Positions 14,640 through 58,200 of a stretch of 64,000 nt of DNA are shown here, piece by piece. Both the position numbers and the translations under genes were made by a program. Source of the stretch: Artemia franciscana (taxonomy: Eukaryota > Arthropoda > Branchiopoda > Anostraca > Artemiidae); contig NC_088867.1 in assembly GCF_032884065.1 (NCBI RefSeq), positions 28,329,507-28,393,506 on the forward strand, given 5' to 3'. The notes beneath the pieces were generated by a model. It ran no database searches. It had not been told where the DNA came from and saw only the letters and a list, made by a program, of their open reading frames with translations. Every line of letters starts with the position of its first letter. The stretch's first letter is position 1.

Positions 14640-15760
14640 AGGATCTGTGTGAAGCAATCAAAGTGTTTCGCCCTGTACAGGATTTTGTACTAACCCAATG
14701 GAAGATTTTCCCCTACAGCTCCAGTTTCTTCGTGAATGATACCGCATCGGAAACGGTTCCACCGATATCTTTATCTTTGCCTTGAATCTACACGTTAAGG
14801 GAATTTAGCTTTTGGCTATGTCTCTAAGAGAAGCAAAGTCTCGAAGCCAAACTGGATCATGTAGTTCAGGAAATGATTCAACTCGTTCTTTCAACGAGGC
14901 TACCAATCAGGAAGTAATTCTTTGAAACATTGCAAAACCCTCCCTTTGCTAAGCCAACAAACTTCTGTATGAAGTGTTAGACCATACTGGTATTGTAACT
15001 CTTCAGTCTGGAGTCCTGGTCAAACATATCTGAAGTGCACAAGCTCTTATTTTATTTACGACTTTGGTGACTGTTTTCATCACGTTGCTCACACTCAAAA
15101 ACTTACCATATCATGACTGCTATTTTACTAAGTAACGGCAAGACTTAAATTTTGGAAACCTGGTGTTTTTACGACAAAATGCAATGAATCCTTTCTCGCC
15201 ACCTACCATTGCGGGAGCTCCATCGGTTGCCAAACCTACCAAATTTTGTACAGGAATATTTCCGGAGTCGATGATCTTCCTAAAAGCACTATATATGTCC
15301 CGTCTTGAAGTAAGTCCTAGAATTGGTCAATCTTTTACTAGCTCTTCTTTTATTTGAAAATCATCGTAACCGTTCTTACAAAAATGGCCAACTGAGCTGT
15401 ATCAACAACATTCGTTGATTCATCAAGTCGCATGGATAACTGCAGCGATCAAGTCATTTGTGAAACTACATGAGAACTTATTGAGTCAACCCTTCTCATG
15501 ACTGCATTTCCAGACAGTTGTGCAGACCGAATAGCAGATATTATCTCACCTTTGTTTTCAAAATTTTCAAATACATATTTGCAGCTTCTTAAAAATACCA
15601 CTTTGATTAATTCACGATCTTCGTAAGGTATTGACTTTCAGCAGTTATATTTGGAACACAAAAATATGCCTCAGTCGCTGCTTTGTCGCTGTCTAATTTT
15701 CTGAGAAAAAGAGACTGTTGAGCATTGAATTGGAATTTTTGGGCATAGACGTTCAACGTT
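14640..15760 (-). pseudogene. ZBED5/GTF2IRD2-like hAT transposase fossil
   Basis: On the - strand: LRKLDSDKAATEAYF near 15690, LQLSMRLDESTNVVDTAQLA then IFVR near 15400 (usual LDESTDV...AQL..FVR, first catalytic aspartate), LTLHTEVCWLSKGRVLQCF near 14960 (usual HTEVRWLSRG), and a later KKLEL segment near 14730. The lineage is related to the intact transposase at 29561-31432, but this copy is old, with many stops. The open frame on the opposite strand at 15163 is its shadow. Confidence 0.72.
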
Positions 15761-26500: not shown

Positions 26501-27424
26501 AATGAAAGACTATCCACCAATTAGATTGAGAAAGAATTCTCTGCTTAGTGATTGACTTAGCTTGTCTACTTACCTAATTTTCACAAAAATTGTGGCCACA
26601 AGATATTAATTTAAACTGAAGAAAAATTTTGCTTGAATACTTTAATGTTAAGCTATTGTAAATTGGGTTTGTAGGAATATCTCAAGTATGTCTATTTAAA
26701 GAAAGGTAGAAATTTTTTGAATCTTTTTAATTTCAATTGCCATCCTAAAGCAATGTGAGAAACCATTCGCTTCAAATGTTAAAGTTGCCTTATCATAAAG
26801 AACTAAATGATCTGGATTTTCAACAATGGAGGGCCAAAGCAGAATCAATATCCTCATTTTTATTTTAAATTTTACGTCTCAAGAAATCTTGTATTCATAC
26901 CTTTTTTCCTCAGGAGCCAAAATACCCCCACGAAATATTCCCCCTTCCCCTGTTGAAAATTCCCCTATTTTCCCCTTATATAATTCCGGATTTTCATTAG
27001 AAGGGAAATTTAAATTTCTACTCTCCTGTTTAAGTAAGGGGCAATCATATTGCATTACCTATAGTAAAGACCCATAAGGTCCAATGTATTAACATTTGTT
27101 CATTTTTTTCCCAGAGACACTTCATGTGGAAGGGTGTTCAAATAAGCTTAGGAGGGGGCTCAGTCAATTGGAAATCGAAAGTTCCAGTGCCCTTCTCAAA
27201 GATTTGGCCTTCTTTTCAACCAGTTCCTACCAAATGAGTTGTTACTGACTACAGTGTCTAAAATAAATTCTTATTCTACTTGAACTGCCCTTATGTTGCA
27301 CCAGTTGTTTTGAAATAATCTTCCAATAAATACCCCAATTATCTCGAAGTGAGAGATGATGGGAGGGTAGAGGTAGAAATTGATATATAATCCTCAGGGC
27401 TATATCCAGGCCTTTCCTTTTGAG
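26501..27424. other. No gene supported
   Basis: AT-rich. It contains a CCCC/TTTTCC-rich patch at 26930-26985. No exon is recognised. Confidence 0.35.
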
Positions 27425-28199: not shown

Positions 28200-29209
28200 A
28201 AAACCTATATTCCGAAAATTGGTAATCAGCAACATTTACAACCTTTCCCCAAGGGGCTGGTGGTAATGTCATGATGGTTGAGGACAATGGAGTAGTTTTT
28301 GAAAGGTTCTGGGACAATCTGAGACTTGGTTAACATAGGTAATCTGCACAATGCATGTAAGGCATCTAGTTTCAAATGCAGAGATTCTTGATTCATCATC
28401 ATATTATATCTACCAAGTTTTGCTTCAGTGTAAGGTGATGGGAATTATGAAGGAGTTAAAGAATTGCACCTTTAGAGAAGTTGACAGAATCTTGCTTTTC
28501 CAAATTGGCAAGAGGTTCTTTTAGCTGGGGCTAGCCAGGCCAAGTCTTTGCTTGATTGCTTTTGGGCAGTTGTTGTCTGAACTTAGGGGGCTCCCAAAAT
28601 AGACAAAGGAGTTAACATTTTCTACTGGCTCCCGTTTTATTGTCAGCTGGACAGTTCTTATAGCAGGGTCTCTAGACAGCTGCATAACCTTGGTTTTGGC
28701 TTTGTTAATTACCATCTCAAATGCTGAGACTATTTTGTTGATGTCAGTTTTGGGTAGATGCTTTTGGCTGTTGATTTTCTTGATGTCATCTGTTTATGCC
28801 AGCTTATTTATAAGCTTCCCTCCAATCTCTGCCCTGTCCACAGTTTTAGGAACTGGTAGCGCCACATTGAAGAATAGGTTAATGAGGTGGGGTGACAAGA
28901 GGGAACCTTGGAGAACACCCACGAATGCTGGGGAATCTTCTGTCAGTTCCTCCCTTGTGTGTCTTGACCTGGCTAACGAAATGAGTATAGATCTCTGATC
29001 AGGACTGTCATGTTTTTCTGGGACTCCATTATATAGCAGGATGCACCATAATCCATCTCACCATATCGAGTCAAAAGCCTACTTGAAGTCAATAGCAGCT
29101 GTTTTGCAGGCTCAATATGCTTCTTCGTCAATCGCCAAGTGGAGAAAATCTTGTCTATGGTAGAGTGGTCTTTTCTAAAGCCTCCTTGGTATTCCTCTAT
29201 GACATGGTG
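28200..29209 (-). pseudogene. LINE reverse transcriptase remnant, 3' part (left of the hAT insertion)
   Basis: The - strand shows a decayed reverse transcriptase: GVLQGSLLSPHLINLFFN, an altered active-site box KLAYTDDI (usual YADD), NKAKTKVM and VYFGSPLSS. Then comes a LINE-type tail with SKTW and FETRCLTCIV in several frames. This order matches the palm and thumb of non-LTR retrotransposons, RTE/Jockey type by feel. Many stops and frameshifts make it inactive. It continues on the far side of the hAT element at 31609. Confidence 0.75.
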
Positions 29210-29217
29210 TCATAGAG

Positions 29218-31600
29218 CAGTGGTTCCCAACCGGTGGTACGCGTACCCCAGGGGGTACGCGAAACCCTCGCAGGGGGTACGCGAAGGTTCCCAAAATTAA
29301 TTTAGTCTACATCTTTAAAACTTGTTTCTGACTCAGTTCCAACATTTCCCTCAAAATCAGATAACATAACCCATTGTACGTAATTTCAGACTCATTTTCA
29401 AAACTTTCGCTTTCAGTAACCCGCTAATTTTTCTCCATAGCCGTAAGGTCTTGATGCTAATTTTTCTCCATAGCCGTAAGGTCTCGATTTAAACTCAGCG
29501 AGTTCAGTATCTTGTCATCTGTTGAAACACAAAGTTCGTGAATTGTGGTTGCAAACAAAGATGGATAGATTCCTGATCAGGAATAACAAGAAGCCGAATG
29601 ATGGTACCCAAAACTCTGAACCTGCACCTAAGAAGAAGAAATATGACGAATCATCGGTCAAAGTGCGTCGATATTTGTCAGAATACCTAGGGCTCGGATT
29701 TAGTGCAACAAGGTCTGATCCAGTGAATGCACAGTGCGTTCTTTGTGGTCAAGTCTTGGCCAACAGTTCCATGAAACCTGCGCATATGAACCGGCATCTC
29801 AGTACTGTGCACCCTTCTCATGTCGGTAAGCCCATAGAGTTTTTCAAGCGTAAACAAGAAGCATTCGCTAGTAACTGTTTGGAAATTGCAAAAGTGGCAT
29901 CAGTTTCTTCAAAGGCTCTCCGGGCTTCGTATGCTGTTTCATATTTAGTTGCGAAACAGAAAAAACCGCACACCATCGCCGAATGTCTGATATTACCAGC
30001 ACTAGTGAAAGTCAGTGAAATAATGTTTGACACGAAAACTGCTACTGCCCTTCAGTCTATACCTGTGTCGAACAATACCATTTCAAGAAGGATAGAAGAC
30101 ATTGCAAGCGATATTGTCATGCAGGTTATTGAGCTAATAAAGTTGACGAAGATGTTTGTGTTACAGCTTGACGAAAGCACGGATGTGTCAGGTGAAGCCC
30201 AGGTGATCGTCTTTGTTCGATATCAAGATTGTTCTGACATAAGAGAAAATATTCTGTTTTGTCAAAACCTACAGTCAAGAACAACAGGAGAAGAACTATT
30301 CAAGGTGACTGACAAATTCTTCGCAGAAGGGGGCATCTTGTGGGACTGGTGTCTATCAGTTTGCAGTGATGGAGCTGCCGCCCTAACAGGGAAGAATAAT
30401 GGGCTCATGGCCTGGATAAGGAAGAAAAATCCAAAGGTGAAGTGGTTGCACTGCATCATTCACAGGCAAGCTCTTGCATCGAAAAGGATGAACGCACATC
30501 TGCACGAGACCCTCAACGAGGCTGTAAAAGTGATCAACTTCATCAAAGCCCGACCACTGAACTCAAGAATGTTCAAGTTGCTGTGCCAAGAGATGGGTTC
30601 AGAACATCAACATTTACTTCTGCACACAGAAGTTCGCTGGTTGTCTCGTGGGAAGATTTTAAACAGACTTTTCGAGCTTCGACAAGAAGTTCATATGTTT
30701 CTTCTGGAGCAAAAATCTGCATTCAGTTCACTTTTTGAAAACCAGGACTGGGTCTGCAGGCTGGCCTATCTTGCGGATATTTTCGACAAACTGAATGACT
30801 TGAATCTGTCAATGCAAGGTTTCCGGACGGACGAACTCTCCCTGAATTCGAAGATGTGTGCTTTCATCAAGAAATTGGAGTTCTGGCTTAAAAAGGTTCA
30901 AAGAAACAGCGTTAGTGTCTTCCCGACCCTTGACAAGTTTGCGGACGATAGTGAAATTGATAACCTCAACACAATCTGTGATTGTATTCGGGAGCATCTG
31001 ACAAAGTTGCGAGATGAACTTGTGTCATATTTCCCATCGATTATGAACCAAAATAGAACGCAGGATTGGATCCAAAATCCATTTGTTGAAGACGTGACCT
31101 CAAGCTCCGGTCTTAGTGACAAGCTTACAGAGAATCTGATCGAACTTGCCAGTGATCGCGCCTTAGAACTGAAATTCCAAAATGTAACTGTTTCCCAGTT
31201 TTGGCTGGAGGTGAAAGGAGAATACAAGGAACTAAGTGAAATCGCCATGTCTGCTTTGTTACCATTCGGATCCACTTACCTTTGTGAAGTGTCATTTTCG
31301 GCAATGTCATTGATCAAAACCAAACACAGAAACAGACTGAGTGTACAAAATGACCTTATAATTGCCGTTAGTGACATCGAGCCAAGATTTGATAATATTT
31401 TAGCAAAAAAGCAGCCTCAAGTTTCTCATTGATTTTGTACGTACATTTAAGCACCGTCATATTGGACAATAAATCTCGTGTTTTTGAAAATCTGATTTTA
31501 GTTAAGAAAAAAGTAAAACAACGATTCTCAAGAAAGGGGTACGCAAACTTTTTGGGCCTTGACTAGGGGTACGCGGACCGAAAAAGGTTGGGAACCACTG
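29218..31600 (+). mobile_element. Complete autonomous-looking hAT DNA transposon
   Basis: The element is 2383 bp. It begins CAGTGGTTCCCAACC and ends with the exact inverse (15 bp terminal inverted repeats). It is flanked by a perfect 8 bp target duplication, TCATAGAG, at 29210-29217 and 31601-31608. The motif GGGGTACGCG recurs just inside both ends, and a perfect 12 bp palindrome GGTACGCGTACC lies at 29236-29247. It carries one uninterrupted transposase frame and interrupts an older LINE, whose reading resumes on the other side. Confidence 0.95.
29561..31432 (+). CDS. hAT transposase, ZBED5/SCAND3-like, intact
   Basis: Open frame of 623 codons from ATG 29561 (MDRFLIRNNKK). The frame is open further 5' but only from a TTG, so this ATG is the best start. 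A BED-type zinc finger is seen early (CVLCG, then HMNRHLSTVH). The RNase H-like catalytic core shows LDESTDVSGEAQVIVFVRYQ with the first aspartate, CSDGAAALTG with the second, WLHCIIHRQAL and HTEVRWLSRGK. The C-terminal hAT dimerisation region shows ALLPFGSTYLCEVSFSAM and KHRNRLS. Family knowledge: these proteins cut and paste hAT elements, and the lineage also gave rise to domesticated ZBED5, SCAND3 and FAM200 genes. Here terminal repeats and a target duplication show it is a transposon, not a domesticated gene. No stop or frameshift suggests a recent insertion. Confidence 0.93.
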   Translation: MDRFLIRNNKKPNDGTQNSEPAPKKKKYDESSVKVRRYLSEYLGLGFSATRSDPVNAQCVLCGQVLANSSMKPAHMNRHLSTVHPSHVGKPIEFFKRKQEAFASNCLEIAKVASVSSKALRASYAVSYLVAKQKKPHTIAECLILPALVKVSEIMFDTKTATALQSIPVSNNTISRRIEDIASDIVMQVIELIKLTKMFVLQLDESTDVSGEAQVIVFVRYQDCSDIRENILFCQNLQSRTTGEELFKVTDKFFAEGGILWDWCLSVCSDGAAALTGKNNGLMAWIRKKNPKVKWLHCIIHRQALASKRMNAHLHETLNEAVKVINFIKARPLNSRMFKLLCQEMGSEHQHLLLHTEVRWLSRGKILNRLFELRQEVHMFLLEQKSAFSSLFENQDWVCRLAYLADIFDKLNDLNLSMQGFRTDELSLNSKMCAFIKKLEFWLKKVQRNSVSVFPTLDKFADDSEIDNLNTICDCIREHLTKLRDELVSYFPSIMNQNRTQDWIQNPFVEDVTSSSGLSDKLTENLIELASDRALELKFQNVTVSQFWLEVKGEYKELSEIAMSALLPFGSTYLCEVSFSAMSLIKTKHRNRLSVQNDLIIAVSDIEPRFDNILAKKQPQVSH

Positions 31601-31608
31601 TCATAGAG

Positions 31609-32840: not shown

Positions 32841-35800
32841 GTTGGTTCCAAATTACAGCATGAGTTTTGTCTCCTAATAGACAAACTTTCTATTTGTTCA
32901 CTTTTGAATCAAAAGTTAGTTTTGAAAATTCTTGGGAAATACCTTCTGGAAAGTCTTATTGAAAGGGCTGTTCTGGAAACAGTGGTTTTGTTTTGTATCT
33001 GTGCAGTTTATTTTCTAAAAAGTTTAGACATTAATAGCCAGCTTTGCTCTACTTCTATACCTTATTAAATTTTAAAATGATCTTCACATTAGTCTGCAAG
33101 TACGACTGTATTTACTGTATGTTATTCTGTTATCACCTGTTTTGCAGAGTTTCTTTTGTTTGTAGCTGTCATATAAATTTTAGAAGATATGTACCTTTTG
33201 ACTTATTGACTTATTGACTGACCTTATTTATTGACAAATTAAAAACAATACATATACTTATTCCGGTACTGCTAACATGTCGGAGGCTATAAATGGTCAA
33301 TACAAGAATTTGAGAAATCAATTATTTTATAAAAAAAAACATAAAATTCTTCACAAAAATATCAAACAAAAAATATTATTTTTCTAAATGTCATTAAGCA
33401 GAAAGACTAAACAAACAACAAGCAAACAAAAACTAAACATCAAAAATGTAAGCATTTTTAAGGTATTTTCAAGTATTTTCTCAGAACAAGATTAGAAAAA
33501 TCAATTCTTGCTTGTAAAAATTGTCTGACGAGAAAAATTTTAATGCACAAGTGACTTTTGAATGATAACGGGTAGGATACACTGAAGAGTTTCTTGCCTA
33601 GCATTTGAAAAACATTCATTTTGGTTTTTTACATGCTTTTTTTTTTAAAGTCCACACACTTCTACCAGCAATGCCCCCATATCTTTTATCCGTCCAAATA
33701 GTACTAGCCATCTTCCTTTGCGAAATTTTCAGTTCATAAATGTTGTTATTGTTTTTTGTTAAACCGATGTAAAACTAATTTTAGTTATTGTTATTGATCA
33801 TTTTGTAACAAATTTGTTTTCTGCTGAAAGCAACCGGAATTTGACTTTGTTTTGTTGTTTTCAAATGAATTGAATAGAGAAATTACTTTTTCTGTGCAAT
33901 GCTTAGAATGAATATACAACCATGGTAACATAAAAATGGCAGGAGCTCAAAGGCTAGCTTCAGAGTTCACTAAGTTTTGAAAGGTCGAAAAGATCCTAAG
34001 TTTAAATGAGGTGTCATTTCTTACTGATAATTATTATGTAAACTGCAAAAATATTTTATGGTGCCTGAGCAATAATTTTTTACAATCCTAAAATTTTAAA
34101 ATTGATTTTTTTTTTTACTAAATAAAATACTAAGAAATATAATAAACCGTAACTCCTAAAAATAGAGTAAGATCAAACAAAAAGTACGCTTTTAGATTTC
34201 TTAGTATGGGACGTAATCATCTATTACTAGGTTGCAAGCTAACGCTGCAACCCGGATCAGTTACTATGGGCTAGAGTTTGTTCTTTAATGTAATCATGAT
34301 TATACAGATTATTTCACATCTTCCAGTTTAAGTAAAATTCATATTTTTACTGAAAGATTTAATATTGTTTACTCATATTCACACAATATTCCAATTATCT
34401 GCCAGGTCAAAAGACATTAGCCTGACCAGAACAAAAATATGTGACTATGGGCCGTGGTTTGTTCTTTAGTATGACATTTATAAAGAACTATATCGGTCCT
34501 TTATGTAATTAAATAAAAAAAACAAGTTTTTTTCAACTGAAAGTAAGGAGTAACATTAAAACTTAGAACGAACAGAAATTACTCCGTGTATCAAAGGGGC
34601 TGTTCCCTCCTCAACACTCTGCTCTTTACGCTATAGTTTGACTCTTTCTCTCAACTCTACTTTTTAAAACAGTAAAAAACCCAAGCGTAAAGAGCAGGGT
34701 GTTGGGGAGGGAACTGGCGGTCCAATGAGTCGAACGTCTTTTTGAAGTCTATGAAGATCATGTAGAGTTTATTGCACCATTCGCAGCTCTCCTCCATGAG
34801 CATTTGCAGGAAGAATATCAAGTCTATGCAAGAGCAGTTTGGGCGAAAGCCATGCTGTTCATCCCGCTGGTATTCATCTAGGTGACGTTGTAATTGGGAC
34901 AGGATAACGTGGGACAACAATTTGCCAGGAATTGAGGGCAGGCTGATTCCTCGCCAGACTCTATTGATAGAAGAGCGTTAGCAAAGGTCTTATCCTTATA
35001 TGGTATACCAGAAAAATACTTTAAAGTGATTTGTGTAATGTACGAGAATAATACTGCTGCGGTTTAGGTAGGAAATGAGGTTAGCAACTGTTTTTTTTTT
35101 TTTTAATCAGGAGTTAAGCAGAGTTGTGTTCTATCCCCCTTTATACGGATCATTTTGATGGACTTTGTCTTAAGGAGCGCAGGAAAGGCAACTGGAGACC
35201 ACGGAATCAAATGGAGAGGAAAAACGCTCCTGGACTTAGATTGTGCTGATGATTTAGGCATATTAGATGAAAGTGTGAGCAAAATGAATGAATTTTTAGA
35301 GGTTTTCGGAGTTCAGGGTGCTAGAATAGGCTTCAAAATAAATGTGAATAAAGACTAGGTCACTAAGGCTAGGAATAAGTGAAGATGAAAAGGTGACGTT
35401 GGGTAACGAAAAGATTGATCAGGTTGGCAGCTTCACTTACCTTGGTAGTATTATTAGTAAAGACGGTGGGAGCAGTGAAGATGTTAAAAGTAGAATACCT
35501 AAGGCTCAGGGTTTTTTTTTTCACAATTAAAAAAAGTTTTGAAGAATAGAAGGATAATTCTGCAAACCAAGATTAAAATATTGGAAGCTATAGTGATGAC
35601 GGTGGTCAAATATGGCTCTGAAGCATGGGCGCTCCGAAAAGCAGATGAAAATTTACTAGATATTTTCCAGAGAACTTGCCTATGGATTGTTCTAAGGACT
35701 GAGGAAAATGTACATATTCTTCATTACTCTACTTTCTAATAACAACTTTGATAGTCTAGTTTTCACCTTCGATTCTTTGAACCAACTATACAAAATTTTA

Positions 35801-38800
35801 ATTTAGCAATATTTGAAAAATAATTGTGTGACTAATCTAGACTGCACATAGTGTTGTCAGATCCTCGATACAATACAGAAAATACCTTTGCTCAGTCAGT
35901 CGTATTGGTTGATTGATCCTCTTTAACTATTGGCACCTTCTATACAAAAATAGAACCGTTTGTCCGTAATTTCTTTCTATAATTGTTCAAAATGTGGTTG
36001 GGTCTTCCACCAATCCCACTGTAAAACTAATTTTAGATATTGTACAGAGTGGTTGTCCTCGTGTCTGGAATGCAGTCGGGTTTGGGATGTGATTATTTGT
36101 CCTAAAAACAGGCGTCTTTACAAAGGGTTGACGGTTCACTCTTTTCTTCTGCTATAGGATTTTAGAGAAGGGCCTGGATTTTAGAGAAGGGTGACCTGGC
36201 CCTTCTCTAAAATCTAAAAATTTTCACACTCATTCCTGTAATCCCTTATTCGCATATAATTTTTTTTTTAATCCGTTACTTTCTCCAATTTTCGTCTCCA
36301 ATTTTTTTCATTTGTAAGTCATAATTTGTATGCACTTCTTGCTCTGGCCATTTTTATGTTTAATCGATTTTATATTTAACAACTTCGAAATGATTGTTAT
36401 TGTTACAAAGTATAATCCCAGCATTTTACTGACAAAAATTAAAAACATAAAATTAATGGTTTACTTTTCATTAATGCATATTTTTTTTTTATTAGGAACG
36501 ACAGAAAATTGTCCTAGAAACGAAGAATAAGTCTGTCTATTGCAGAGAATGTGATCTTGCATCCCAAGAATCAGTAAAGGAGTTCGTAAAAACCTTTAAG
36601 AAAGGTTTGTCAAATATGTTCTACTTTTTTCGATTTTTTTTTTTATTTTTATTTAATTTTATATGGTTCCTTTCTTGTGTGTGTCTAGAATGACCAAGTA
36701 TCCTAGTAATGACATTCCATTTAATAGCTTTTCAAGAATGTTGAAAATACTATGCATATACTATGTATAAAGTCTTTATTTTCGAGTTTACAAGTAAGAA
36801 TTGGTTATGATGAGGATGATAGGGTTCTCTTCCCGGTGCTATGCCTCGGGAGCTGCGTTGTATTTACTCAATTCATCGCCTCATTTTTCTTCATAAGGGA
36901 TTACAAGTAAGAATCGATTAGAATACTAATCGTTACAATGCGTTATAATACTAATCGTTAGCTTTTCGAACGAACCGAATCTCTCATGGTCAAGTACGTA
37001 TCAAGGGTTTCAGAAGAGGGTATTTCTTAGGGAGGTAGGTTGCAAAAAAAAACATAAAAAGCCGCACCAAAAATTTGTTTATATGCGTTTTTGTTCCGTT
37101 ACAAAATTTCAGGTGGATTTTTATTAGTGCAAATGTCTAAGTTTATGAAATGAATCAATCGCCTTGCCTGACACTCATTGGATATGGGCCCAATTGGACT
37201 TTAGACGCTTGTTTGCCTGTCATTTCACGCAAATTAAAGGTCCCGTGTCTGTTCTAAAATCTTGGTTTATCCTGCCTAAGAGCATAGGTAGGTATGCCTA
37301 GTATACCTCTTATTCCAGGCAATCTAATGGTCCTATGTCAGTTTTAAATTTTTGGTCAACCTGTCTGAGACACTAGGTGGTTGTCACTTACTAAAAGATA
37401 ACAAACAAGTATTGGTCCATTAGGAGAGTCATACTTACTTCCGCCATTTACCTGTGCCATTTAACCAAACACTTGGAAAACTGTAGTTCCTGTGACTATC
37501 TTAGCTATATGACTATCTACCTTATTTCTTCTGCCTTAGGAATGACGCATGGACGGATACTAGATATACGTATCTATTAACAAATGAACTAACATCATTT
37601 TTATACAATCCTAAAATGGGGGGGCTAATGCCAGATTTGCCTCTCACTGAATTGGACTATCTGTCTTGGCTTTTTCTACAATTAGCCACGGCTTGATTCC
37701 CACAACTATTCAATTTTAATTCACCCCCCCTCCCACAGCCCTCAGTACAAGGGATGTAATTTACGCCCTGGGGGTATATAAGGTTTGTATAGAAAGGGTG
37801 ATCGTATAAACTTTGGGGTATTTGCTCATTGGATTCATTGAATCGAATATCCTATTCGCTCATTGGTTTGGTAATCTGAAGCTCTAGTGTCCTTTTTAAG
37901 ATTTTTGAGTGATCAAAGGGTGGGTACCCCCCCCCCCCCATATGATCGTATTTTCAAGGATTGTAAGATTTGTAAAGGTTTATGTGGAAAAAGTGATCGT
38001 ATAAACTTTGAAGGAGGCTCGTTGGATGGGTAATCAAAAGTCCTAGTGTCTTCTAGAACTTCTGGCAACGTTTGCCAGGCAACGTTTGAAGGGCAACGTT
38101 TTTTGCCCTTCAATTACTTTTGACTAATGAAAAGGGCACTAGCCCTTTCAGTTTCCAATCAAATGAGCCTTTTTCTAAGTTTCTACGACAGCAAATGGCC
38201 ATCTCAACATTTCTATCAGATGCATTGCGTGAAAATACGAAGTAAGGAGGGATGGGGGTTATCCACACTCCGATCACTCCGAATCTTAAAAAGAGCACTA
38301 TAACTTCTTATTACCAATCCAGCGAGCCCTCTTCAAAGTTTATACGATCGCCCTTTCTATATATAAAGTTCCATAAGGTCCTTGTATGCCAGAAGCATCA
38401 ATTACAGCCCGTACACCTCGGCTCTCGAGGGTTCTGTCCACCTTGTAGCCATTGCTATATGCTCTTTGGACTATTGTGAACAAAATGGCTATCTTGAAAT
38501 TTTGATTGGATGCGTTTGGCAAAATAGGTTGTCAGGGAGGGGGGAGACTAGTTCCCTATATCTATTTTGACCCTTAAAAATGAACTAGAACTGTATATTT
38601 CCAATCAGATGAGCTTCCTCCAAAGTTCAAAAAACCACACCTTCCATAAAAAGCTTATATGCCCACGGGATATAACTTGCAACCCTAGCACCAGACCTCG
38701 GGGGGTCGTGCCAATCCCCAAAGGCCTTGCTATGTGATCTTAGGACTGCTTTTGAACAAGTAGCTATCTATATCAGTAATATAGCACATCAAACAATATA

Positions 38801-41800
38801 AGTTTCTTAATATAATAGCTTAATAGCTATAATACATAATTATCAATTATTAATCTTATTTTAGAACAATCTTATCTTGTCGTATTTTTTTCAACAAAAA
38901 TATCTATTTTGTGTTCACTTTCTCGTTGAAGACTCTAAAGTCATTCTAATCCTTTCATCCTACGGCATTGAACGACAAAATACATTTAAAATGTTTTAGT
39001 TTTTTAACTTTAATAAATAAAAATCCTTGAAACTTTAAGGAATATATATCAGTATACTAAACTGACAATCCACAACCATTTTTTTCAGTAAAGTGCAAAT
39101 TATGTCTTGAGAAGGTATGGGGGTTGTCAAAGACATAATTTCCATCTTTGAACTACGGTGAACAAAATAGCTATCTCGAAATTTTGAGTTGCTGTGTCTT
39201 GAGAATTTATGGGCAGGGGAGGGTTGTTGCCCTCCAATCATGTTTGACTAATAAAAAGGGCACTAACCCTCTGAATTTTCGGTCAAATGAGCCTTTTCCA
39301 AAGTTTCTACGACAACAAATGGCCATCTCAAAATTTCTATCAGATGTATTTCGGGAAAATATGAGGTTTGGGGGGTATCCACCCTTCGTTGCCCTTCAAT
39401 TACCCCACGCCCAGCAATTCCCAAAACACATCTACTCAAAATTTTGAGATAGGCAATTTGTTCGGTGTAGTTGAAAGGTCTGGAAATTATGTCTCTGACA
39501 ATCCCCATACCTTCTCAAGACCAGAACATAATTTGCACTTTACTGAAAAAAAGTGGCTGAAGATTGTCAGTTTAATATACACATACTGATATATATTCCT
39601 TAAAGTGTTATTGATTTTTAATTTATTAAAGTTAAAACATTTTAAACGTATTTTGTTTGTTTAAATAATACAAAAAATAACCGAATGAAACTCAAAACGA
39701 GCTAAAACTAATATGAGTAGGGCTGAAAACCCCCGTGACTTTTCAAGACCAGAACTTAATTTGCACTTTACTGAAAACAAAATATATTTAAAATGTTTTC
39801 ACTTTGTTTTTACTTGTTTAAAATGTTTTTATAGATATATTAAGGGAGAAATCCTCCCCCTTGCACTCCAATTACAGCGCGAGTGTCTGGTACCCTTTTT
39901 AAGAGTAACAGCAGATTGGAGGGCAAGCAGCCATTCTCTCACGCCCATTCATTTTCCAAACGCATCCAGTCGAAATTTTGAGACAGCCATTTTGTTCAGC
40001 ATAGTAGAACGGTCTAGCACCTATGTCTTTACGGATATTAGGCATTTCAACCAACAATTATGCGATTGGCCCACTTTAAAACTAAATGCTCTAAAAATAT
40101 ATCTAAAGGTATTGTGTTAAATGGTTGTCAATAAGACACCTCAGCAATATGTCGAGAACGATTGAGGGTATTAAGTTGAAACTTTTAGGGATACTAATAC
40201 TACCCCTTCTGTTCTTACAATTTAAATAAATAAAAAGAGTGTAAGTGTATCCAGGTTGTCAAAGAGCATAGATAGAATCTTTTGGGAATGATATTAAGTA
40301 TTATTTTTCAGGTCAACTTCAGAAGCTATAAAATTACATTAAAAAATACTGTTTGTGTAAGGATTAAAAATTGTTGGAAAAGTTTCTCCAACATAAAAAA
40401 TACAACCCATACTATAGATTCTTATAGAAGAAAAACTGAAAAGATGCACAATATTTTTCCCCATGAAAAAGACTATGTCAATAAAGAACGAACAGAAATT
40501 AACTAAAAAAAAATTTCCACGAGACAGGTTTTTCAAAGAAAAGTAAAGAGCTCCATTAAGCCAAGAATGAGCCACAAATCACTATCAATAAATACTATCG
40601 CTATCAATAAAACCACAAATCACTATCAATAAATAAATGAAACTTAAAACGAACAGAAATTACAATGAATAGCCAAGTCAAACTCAACGAGCAAAAATTG
40701 ACATGAGTAGGGCTGACAACCCCCATGCCTCTTCATGACCAGAACACAATTTGCACTTTACTGAAAACAAAATACGCTTGAAATGTTTTCACCTTTCTTA
40801 CTTTCATAAATGGAAATTCATCAAAACCTTAACGAAGGAATGTCAAAATTGTTCAATTTAACTGACAATCCACAGTCATTTGTTTGTTTTTTTTTCAGTA
40901 AAGCGCAATTTGTGTTCTGGTCTTGAAAAGGCATAGGGCGATAGTCTGTCTTATTTAAAGCTTCTTTTTTCACTAAATTTAAAATTTTAATAATATTTTT
41001 CCATCACCCCCAGTTACTCTGAAACAGTTTTGTTTTATAGAATTTACAAGGATTTTACTGAAAAAAACAAATGCTAAAAAGAAATTGGATTTTTTAACGA
41101 CTAAAGATTAACATTTACTTATATTGCAGAGCAACAACACTTGCATATCTTAGTAAACAATGCTGGTGTAATGAAATGCCCACGTCTTGTTACGCAAGAA
41201 AATATAGAGCTACAGCTGGGAGTAAATCATATGGGTCATTTTCTGTTGACCAACTTGTTGTTGGATTATCTAAAGGTAATATGTCACTTGAACTGCCTTC
41301 CTTTTGATATATTTACTATACTATACCTTTTTAATAATAAAATCAGAAAAAAAAACATCATTAGGTCTCATTTTGTGACCAGAGAAGGAGAATAACGGAA
41401 GAAGTTTGAATTCATGATTTAAAGAGATGAGATGATTACATCTCGAAAAAAGTAATCAGAAAGAGAACGAATCAGAAAATAAGAAAGAAGATGTATAGCA
41501 GGAATTCTCTTTTATCGTTTTTAATAAGAGGTCCTGAGTTATCTGTCCATCAGGGGCTGCCAGTTCCTTAAGCCTCTTGAAATGACCGAATGCCGTTGAA
41601 GTATCCTTTAAATTTTATTTTTCCCTTAATTCCATTCCCATATCTAAGAATTTTACTTTCAGACCCAAGTTGGAAGGTATTGTTACTTTCACCGGGATGT
41701 GAAGATTATCTGTTTTACCATTAACCGCAGTGCTGTCCAAACTATCTTAGCGTAAAATATCTATGACCGTAGCCTTTAGAGTTTTTTTTTTAATCTGTCT

Positions 41801-55292: not shown

Positions 55293-58200
55293 CTAAAAAA
55301 AAAAATGAAAAAATGTTATTCAACACAAACAAATATTATCAAGTAATTTCCATTCAAATAAAAACATGCCAAAATGCATTTATGGCCCAATTCAAACTAG
55401 CAAGGGAGGGGGTGTGCTTCAGACCAAATGAAAGAGCAGGATGTCCCCAATTTTTCCAATTTACGCACGCAAGTTTATAATTTTTCGTAGCCGAAATGAT
55501 TTATAAAAAGACAGCTACTTTTAGTTGGACAATGCTTCATATTTTCTAGGCATCTAATTTCCGACAACGCTGATGGTTCGTTCCTTCGATCGAAAGACTA
55601 GATTCACCGTGATTAGGAAAAAGTAGAAAGAAGGGAGTTTTTTTTATTCATTTTGAAATATTTGCTTGATTAAAATCAAATTTTAAATTCCAGTAAAGTT
55701 GAACAGACACTTGAAAAATTTGGGTCTCCTTTGTACAATGAATGTATATTAAGAACATTATATGTTAAAAACTTATATCTGATTAATTTGGATAAAAAAA
55801 AAATTATTCCAGTTGCAATAAATACTTGAGTTGTCTTACTAAGACAATAAATGGCCAAAGATTTCCATTTTTTTAGGGGGTGGGGGTGAAATGTACGTGT
55901 TATTTGGCTAAGGACCCTGTGAAGTTCTGTTTTGTATTTTTTAGGAAATGTTATAAATTATTTAAGAATTTGACTGTTAGTTGTTGGCATCTTCAATAAC
56001 AAAGTCATAAAATCCGGCTTTTCCTCTGTATTTTCTTGTACAATTTCTGAAATTCATACAACTTCCCATCGTCTTCTCCCACAAAGATAAGTTTCCGGGA
56101 TCAACTTGGATAGTCTACTTTTCCTTGAAAAAAGGGAAGTATTTGAAAAAAGTGAAGGACCTGAAAAACAGAAGAAATAGAATAGAGTTAAACGAACCTT
56201 AAGCAAAATTCTGTGTTTGGCGAAAGGGTAAGACCTGACCTGAATTTGACAGGTTTTCTACAAAGTACTCCAACAACAGCAAGGAAAAGATCCAGAAAAG
56301 TGACAGTACTATCATACCTTTCAACCCACCATTGGTCACAAAAGTGATGGAGGTTTTGCTTTTTTTTTCTTTTTTTTTTATGCGGCAGAGCAGAAGCTAA
56401 TGACTCAGTTCATTTGGGAAATAGGAAAAAAATATTTCCTTATAAATATCCATATAGCATTTGAACTAAGTCCAGTCTGGAGGCCTTCACCAGGGCAAGG
56501 TTTAAACTAGAGGTTCCCAACCAATTTTGGGGCATGCCCCACCAAGACAGTTCTAAAATCATGATGTCCCCTTCGTGGTGTTTAATTTTGTTATTAAAAA
56601 ATTTTATGCTTATTCACCCGAAGGAAGCTTAAAAGGCCTTAACCTTAAGGTCGTCCTCTAGGCTTTTATCTTGTTACTGAACCCTTGTGCACCAGGTCCC
56701 AGGTGCAACTGAACCCCCGTGTTACTGAACCTTCGTGCAAATGAACGCCCTTGCAACTGAACCCTCGAGTAACTGGACCCTCATGAAACTAAAACTATTT
56801 GCAACCGAACCACTTTTTACTCGTGCAACTAAATCCCCGTGGAACTGAACCCCTATTTAATTGGAATCTTCGTCAAACATAACCCCAGTTTAACTGAATC
56901 TTCGTGCTACTGAACCTTCATGCACTTAATCCCCGTTTAAATGAGGCTTCCTGCAACTGAATTCCGTAAAACTTAATCTTCGTGCAACTCAACCATCACG
57001 CAATTCAATATCTGTGGAACTCAAACATATTCACCTCAACCCTCATTCAACTCAACCTCCCTGCAATTCAATACTTTTGCAACTCCATCCCATTTGTTTC
57101 AGTCCCCAGTCTATCACCTTTTTTGCAAATCAACCCTCTTTTAACTCCAATTAAATCAAACTTGTCTGATTCAAGTCCCATTCAAATCAGCCAAATCCAG
57201 CACGTCCAAATCAGCCAATTCAGCCCGTTTAATTCAGACTTGAACGAAAATGGTCTTTATTTGTTGGTTTTATTGTTTTGTGTTTCTCCGATGTAGAACT
57301 ATTCCCCCTTACTACATCTAAAAAACAAAACTTTATGCATCTTTACTATTTATTTGAAAATTAGCAGAGCTTTTCATGCAAAAAATATACATCATTACGG
57401 GCTCAAACACACCTGAAGGTCATGGTTTTAGCAATGGCTGTACCCTAGTACAAAGAAAGGCCATAGTAGCCAAAATCTTCAATACACATTAAAAAAACAC
57501 CAACTCATAAGAAAAACTTGCCGTTAATACTGATTCAGGAATGGTAGCTATTATTTAAATTAGTAGTAAAAGTTTATTTCGGAAAAAATTTTTGGTAACT
57601 TGTAAAAAGAGTCAAAAACACAGATATGTCTCCCTTTTCTGTTTTGTTTTTCCAGCTGAGATAGGGCACTAGAATATCATAGAGATCGGTCCAATGTTAT
57701 TTGAAATCTAATATTCACATTTGCTCGCTTTTTGCAATTTTCTCATGACAACATTATCGCAGAATACCTTATGGCACCAAAATCATATTTAAGTGTAATT
57801 TCTGAAGTGGAAAGGCTTGAAACCATAAAAGGTCTACCATTAAAATCTTCATGATCGAAAATCCTTATTGAGGTGTTTAAAATCCCTCTCTTTAATACTT
57901 CCCTACCCATTCACCTTTGCAAGTGGAAAGCAAAAAAAAAAACAAGTGAAAAAAATTCATCCAAATACAAAGCTGATTCGTTAATGATAGAAGCTCTTTA
58001 GCTTCATTTCAACACTAAAATTAATTAAGAAACAAATTCTTTGAAATTACGGGAAAGTGCTTGATATCCAAACATGTCTTTTTCTTTCTCCTTTTCCTTA
58101 GCACTAGCCGGTCACTGGAACATCGTAGAGGCTGTGAAATGGATAACCTTCGGAGGTTTTTGGAATAAAATGCTTTGTCCCCCCCCCCCTTAATGTTGTG

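Follow-up and report, generated by a model that had tools for sequence, protein, structure and literature searches.

The closest described systems to the transposon analysed here lie in the Buster group of hAT elements, whose target duplication signature is nnnTAnnn (PMC3517528, PMC3499496). In the available extracts of these sources, the group (TcBuster, SPIN and Mar) shares with our element an 8-bp duplication of this form, a short terminal inverted repeat (TIR) and a hAT transposase; our element differs in having its own TIR and its own subterminal motif. Buster1 (planarian, insects), as portrayed in part of PMC4298943, is likewise a 2.2-2.5 kb element with a subterminal tandem motif. However, that motif is TGGGTCGCG in Buster1 and GGGGTACGCG here, and the Buster1 TIR, CAGGGCTTCTTAAAC, is unlike our CAGTGGTTCCCAACC. 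The same extract gives Buster1 non-autonomous forms of 366-580 bp, whereas none of the 26 copies sampled in the present genome is below 2.1 kb.

Hermes, placed in the Ac family in an extract of PMC3499496, provides a second point of reference. According to the excerpted text of PMC10368747, two of its subterminal repeats form a quasi-palindrome that is bound by the BED domain. Its repeats adjoin the TIR, as do those of our element, where binding would be by analogy; the Hermes repeats carry an AAGT motif, unlike the GGTACGC found here (PMC10368747). A further hAT element, known to us from a portion of PMC11008031, also has a 15-bp TIR, an 8-bp duplication, transposases of more than 600 aa and, in some hosts, low-divergence copies. 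Horizontal transfer was argued there from many genomes; the likeness to our element is one of description.

In this report, we examined a 64,000-nucleotide stretch of Artemia franciscana DNA (hereafter the window), in which an initial annotation had placed an intact hAT transposon at 29210-31608. That span proved to consist of a 2,383-bp element together with both of its target duplications (Table 1). We conclude, with a probability of roughly 0.93, that the element belongs, as an intact copy, to a Buster-type hAT family that is young and autonomous-looking, where the type is assigned from target sites and end structure and not from phylogeny. The copy is well preserved, and the kind of cut-and-paste transposon that it represents is already known.

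Table 1. Features of the hAT element, in window coordinates
Feature	Position	Strand	Basis
Complete hAT element, 2,383 bp	29218..31600	+	DNA search, inverted-end comparison
5' target-site duplication TCATAGAG, fits nnnTAnnn	29210..29217	.	
Left TIR CAGTGGTTCCCAACC, 15 bp	29218..29232	+	
12-bp palindrome GGTACGCGTACC, just internal to left TIR; candidate transposase binding site	29236..29247	.	
Two more subterminal repeats CAGGGGGTACGCGAA	29249..29285	+	
33-bp unit, tandem, two copies 97% alike	29423..29488	+	
Uninterrupted transposase frame of 623 aa, requiring no intron	29561..31432	+	
Zinc-finger-like stretch C59-x2-C62 ... H79-x4-H84	29735..29812	+	BED-type by eye only
hAT C-terminal dimerisation region, residues 540-598	31178..31354	+	PF05699
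Right-end subterminal repeats, two GGGGTACGC copies	31533..31577	+	
Right TIR, 15 bp	31586..31600	-	
3' target-site duplication TCATAGAG	31601..31608	.	

The TIRs of the hAT superfamily begin with CAG, and the short TIR of this element does so as well. As annotated, its two 15-nt arms are perfect (100% complementary), and the 8-bp duplication is exact. The 8-mer itself occurs six times within the window against 1.56 expected; thus, its exact position at both ends of the element is what counts. The TIR 15-mer, with up to two mismatches, was found three times in the window (0.06 expected), two of these being the element's own ends. A scan of the window for inverted ends (12 bp, at most two mismatches, spacing of 80-4000 bp, exact flanking 8-bp repeat) returned three candidates, among which only the hAT element had no mismatches, and five mononucleotide shuffles returned none. 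One of the other inverted-end structures, at 38504-39971, is a possible element of 1,468 bp with an 8-bp repeat GAAATTTT and one mismatch in 12, and may be due to chance. The exact TIR string was not found in the literature searched, which is not a claim that it is absent from print; a 10-base piece of it led to no transposon paper by title among the matches listed. In viral contigs, six stretches fit a pattern, and none was confirmed.

The open frame of 623 codons that the initial annotation had reported contains no stops. Its dimerisation region was borne out as well, if barely, with PF05699 scoring 22.5 bits against a cut-off of 21.4; this is the sole Pfam domain above its cut-off in the protein. 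The finger region (residues 57-87) has a match to zf-C2H2_12 below the cut-off (E 0.0097), while zf-BED gave no Pfam match to the transposase at E up to 1. DUF4371 matches residues 182-281, also below its cut-off. The motifs LDESTD (203-208), CSDGAA (268-273) and CEVSFS (575-580), which we take to be candidates for the hAT catalytic D, D and E, are exact in 56, 53 and 54, respectively, of 58 sequences, the window's included; CEVSFS falls in the PF05699 region and presumably holds the catalytic Glu. The 58 sequences used for motifs, selection and the palindrome are a set of 59 from which locus L063 was dropped, since its stretch is incomplete. Sequence searches with the transposase gave no matches in the PDB at E up to 1 and none in NCBIfam, and single-sequence structure prediction (mean pLDDT 34) yielded no usable fold with which to conduct a fold search.

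The initial annotation had proposed a search of the assembly for copies above 95% identity. In the 1.27-Gb genome, the best 40 of 242 DNA candidates were scored, these being the window copy and 39 others, and all 39 are 98-99% identical to it over nearly their full length. A search with the left end gave 99-100% identity in the best 40 of 201 candidates. At the protein level, 55 of the 71 scored matches, the window's among them, are free of stops (best 71 of 3,396 candidates). The exact TIR 15-mer occurs genome-wide 229 times in forward and 232 times in reverse orientation; the corresponding counts of the reversed control are 0 and 1.

For a sample chosen without regard to similarity, we turned to contigs C1 and C2 (138.8 of 1,270.5 Mb), on which a copy needed at least one perfect 15-bp end and was otherwise unselected. 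Of the first 100 15-mer places listed, 64 are on these contigs; by coordinates, 47 belong to 26 copies of the family and 17 fall outside it. Scaling from the 26 copies gives roughly 240 genome-wide, a figure in which copies with both ends imperfect are uncounted. The shortest of the 26 measures 2,126 bp. In 10 of them the frame is complete, starting at the first Met and ending in the usual last residues (622 or 623 aa). The other 16 fail this test, or 15 if L046 is let in; that copy has 623 aa with a changed last residue and was scored as not intact, as the test demands the usual ending. An exact 8-bp duplication is present in 21 of the 26, and in 48 of the 59 sequences (window included). An older relative in the same genome, L059, has the same 15-mer TIR and 86% DNA identity over 1,505 aligned bp. 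Two of its pieces match transposase residues 288-617 at 72% and 81% identity, a third piece matches more weakly, and the longest frame in L059 is 266 aa. The genome is in general rich in hAT sequences: a search with the dimerisation domain placed all 150 scored matches above the cut-off (best 150 of 3,103 candidates).

The target sites are highly uniform. The pattern nnnTAnnn fits 44 of 45 distinct duplications, with T at position 4 in all 45 and A at position 5 in 44. Comparison of flanks among the fetched loci (23 junction-spanning rows, a few of them a locus against itself, five inspected closely) showed that, for three sister copies, related sites exist that are empty and carry the 8-mer once. 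L031 has two clean ones, in L075 and in the window at 34532-34710. The empty site of L046 is in L055, and the 8-mers flanking L046 itself differ at one base; that of L061 is in the window at 26962-27156, with a gap of four bases at a distance of seven bases from the junction. L077 was not counted, given mismatches within the 8-mer, and no empty site for the window insertion was found among the fetched loci. The two window stretches named above are copies of repeats that were targets of this hAT family elsewhere. Three loci, L009, L010 and L011, have a common duplication and identical compared flanks, and therefore look like duplicates of one insertion. Among the flanks compared, identical ones join no other loci; those of L013/L029 and of L046/L077 are partly alike. 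L013 and L029, which share a duplication sequence, represent either one site in two copies of a repeat or a duplication.

The ends of the element carry a second ordered feature. GGTACGC or its complement GCGTACC occurs at six sites (element positions 19, 24, 37, 59, 2321 and 2351), all within 63 bp of an element end; shuffling the subterminal stretches 20,000 times gave two at most. The first two sites make up the palindrome GGTACGCGTACC, which is kept in 52 of the 58 aligned sequences (window included) and which we regard as a candidate binding site because of its analogy with Hermes. By the same reasoning, we infer that the GGTACGC repeats are putative internal binding sites for the transposase. 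We thus envisage that the predicted 623-aa transposase would bind these repeats and the 15-bp TIR, excise the element, and reinsert it into nnnTAnnn sites, where 8-bp duplications would result, by what is presumably cut-and-paste chemistry. On this reading, the family underwent a recent expansion to its roughly 240 copies, which are now decaying about neutrally.

The copies also show minor length variation. The 33-bp unit is present twice in 10 and once in 16 of the 26 copies on C1 and C2, defining two subgroups, and the window copy has two. In L063 and L082, 23 bp between the subterminal repeats (window 29264-29286) are missing, which leaves one repeat fewer. L046 and L047 are 22-23 bp below the usual length, perhaps through the same loss.

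How recently did the family spread? The mean pairwise divergence of the 26 copies on C1 and C2 is 1.06%, which, with the 98-99% identity of the 39 other copies, upholds the annotation of a young element. In a set of 40, made up of the window copy and the 39 copies most like it, 362 differences are singletons and 36 are minority states found in more than one copy; as those 39 were picked by DNA similarity to the window, the set understates divergence. The 59-sequence set has 824 and 104, where L063 inflates the singleton count as well as the divergence of the one-unit class, and the figures relied on are those of the set of 40 and of C1 and C2. This mainly private variation forms a star-like pattern of the sort that a brief burst leaves. 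In the set of 40, the window copy itself has six private substitutions, an extra base and two minority states shared with other copies. Among the fetched copies, the nearest reaches 99.58% identity with it; the window insertion is thus recent, which does not imply that it is brand-new.

Singletons in the frame number 296 nonsynonymous to 88 synonymous, against a neutral expectation of 283 to 101 (ratio 1.20, p 0.13), and therefore the frame shows no sign of constraint once a copy has inserted. The older changes, those common to several copies (29 to 15), differ significantly neither from neutrality (p 0.23) nor from the singletons (p 0.13); they lean, without reaching significance, toward purifying selection on the source copies. 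Per site, singletons are nominally most frequent in the terminal 60 bp (0.325), followed by non-coding (0.247) and coding sequence (0.205).

An important question is whether the family still moves. We give even odds to the explanation that the burst is over and that the family has been silenced or has decayed. Most differences occur in one copy each, the nearest copies with different flanks (L012 versus L009/L010/L011) are still 0.25-0.29% apart, and the frame test was failed by 16 of the 26 sampled copies; on the other hand, 10 of these copies keep the whole frame, and the stop-free majority among the best protein matches also speaks against an ended burst. A more active picture, which we hold to be possible but doubtful, is that of a Buster-type hAT at an early stage of invasion, perhaps after horizontal arrival. 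Here, some 240 near-full copies, with about 40% of sampled frames intact, would have been captured before deletion-derived MITEs dominate, and the family might still be moving in populations. A family rich in intact autonomous copies but with few MITEs, or none, can help in asking when non-autonomous forms take over. In other respects, the present one is an ordinary young family of DNA transposons in a hAT-rich genome.

The initial annotation went further and suggested that the element could be the source that mobilises the MITEs of this genome. This part of the annotation found no support, and we judge it very improbable that the element is their present source or mobiliser. Of the 17 places on C1 and C2 at which the 15-mer lies outside the family, 15 are members of a single family of short elements; the remaining two are L059 and L074. 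With four places on contig C4, the aligned MITE-like places number 19, and with one at window position 56508 the alignment holds 20 sequences. The transposases of hAT elements can act on related ends, and all 19 places carry the exact left 15-mer, with a central TA in the 8-mer adjoining the perfect end in 15 of them. But the exact 15-mer is there because the places were picked by it. Further, the 20 sequences have a mean pairwise divergence of 23% over the first 120 columns, against about 1% in the hAT family, and none of them has the GGGGTACGCG motif, even with one change allowed, within its first 420 bp. A partner end is listed for nine of the 19 places, and an exact matching duplication was found in three (L052, L056 and L058, of 517, 360 and 331 bp), whose right ends differ from the window TIR at 2, 5 and 5 places, respectively. 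The lack of any family copy below 2.1 kb among the 26 also argues against such a role, although derivatives with both ends imperfect would escape this count. Judged by divergence, the short family is far older than the hAT family in the window. Its member at 56508 onwards is an old MITE of a hAT-like family (TAGAGGTTCCCAACCAATTTTGGGGCATGCCCC...) and, across the initial 120 columns, diverges by 24-38% from the remaining 19 members; a possible left-side duplication, GTTTAAAC, was noted by eye.

The weakest alternative, a domesticated or fixed single-copy relic with ends surviving by chance, would accord with the intact frame, but we reject it on copy number: in place of the one genomic copy that the initial annotation had named as pointing to a relic, there are many copies of 98-99% identity, 26 of them on two contigs, and their singleton coding changes look neutral.

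Window positions 28521-28715 and both flanks of the element resemble, by eye, decayed reverse-transcriptase sequence of LINE-like type on the minus strand, into which the element has apparently inserted. Farther away, at 14716-15538 on the minus strand, lies the broken remnant of another hAT transposase, three short pieces of which match the intact transposase at 37-59% identity.
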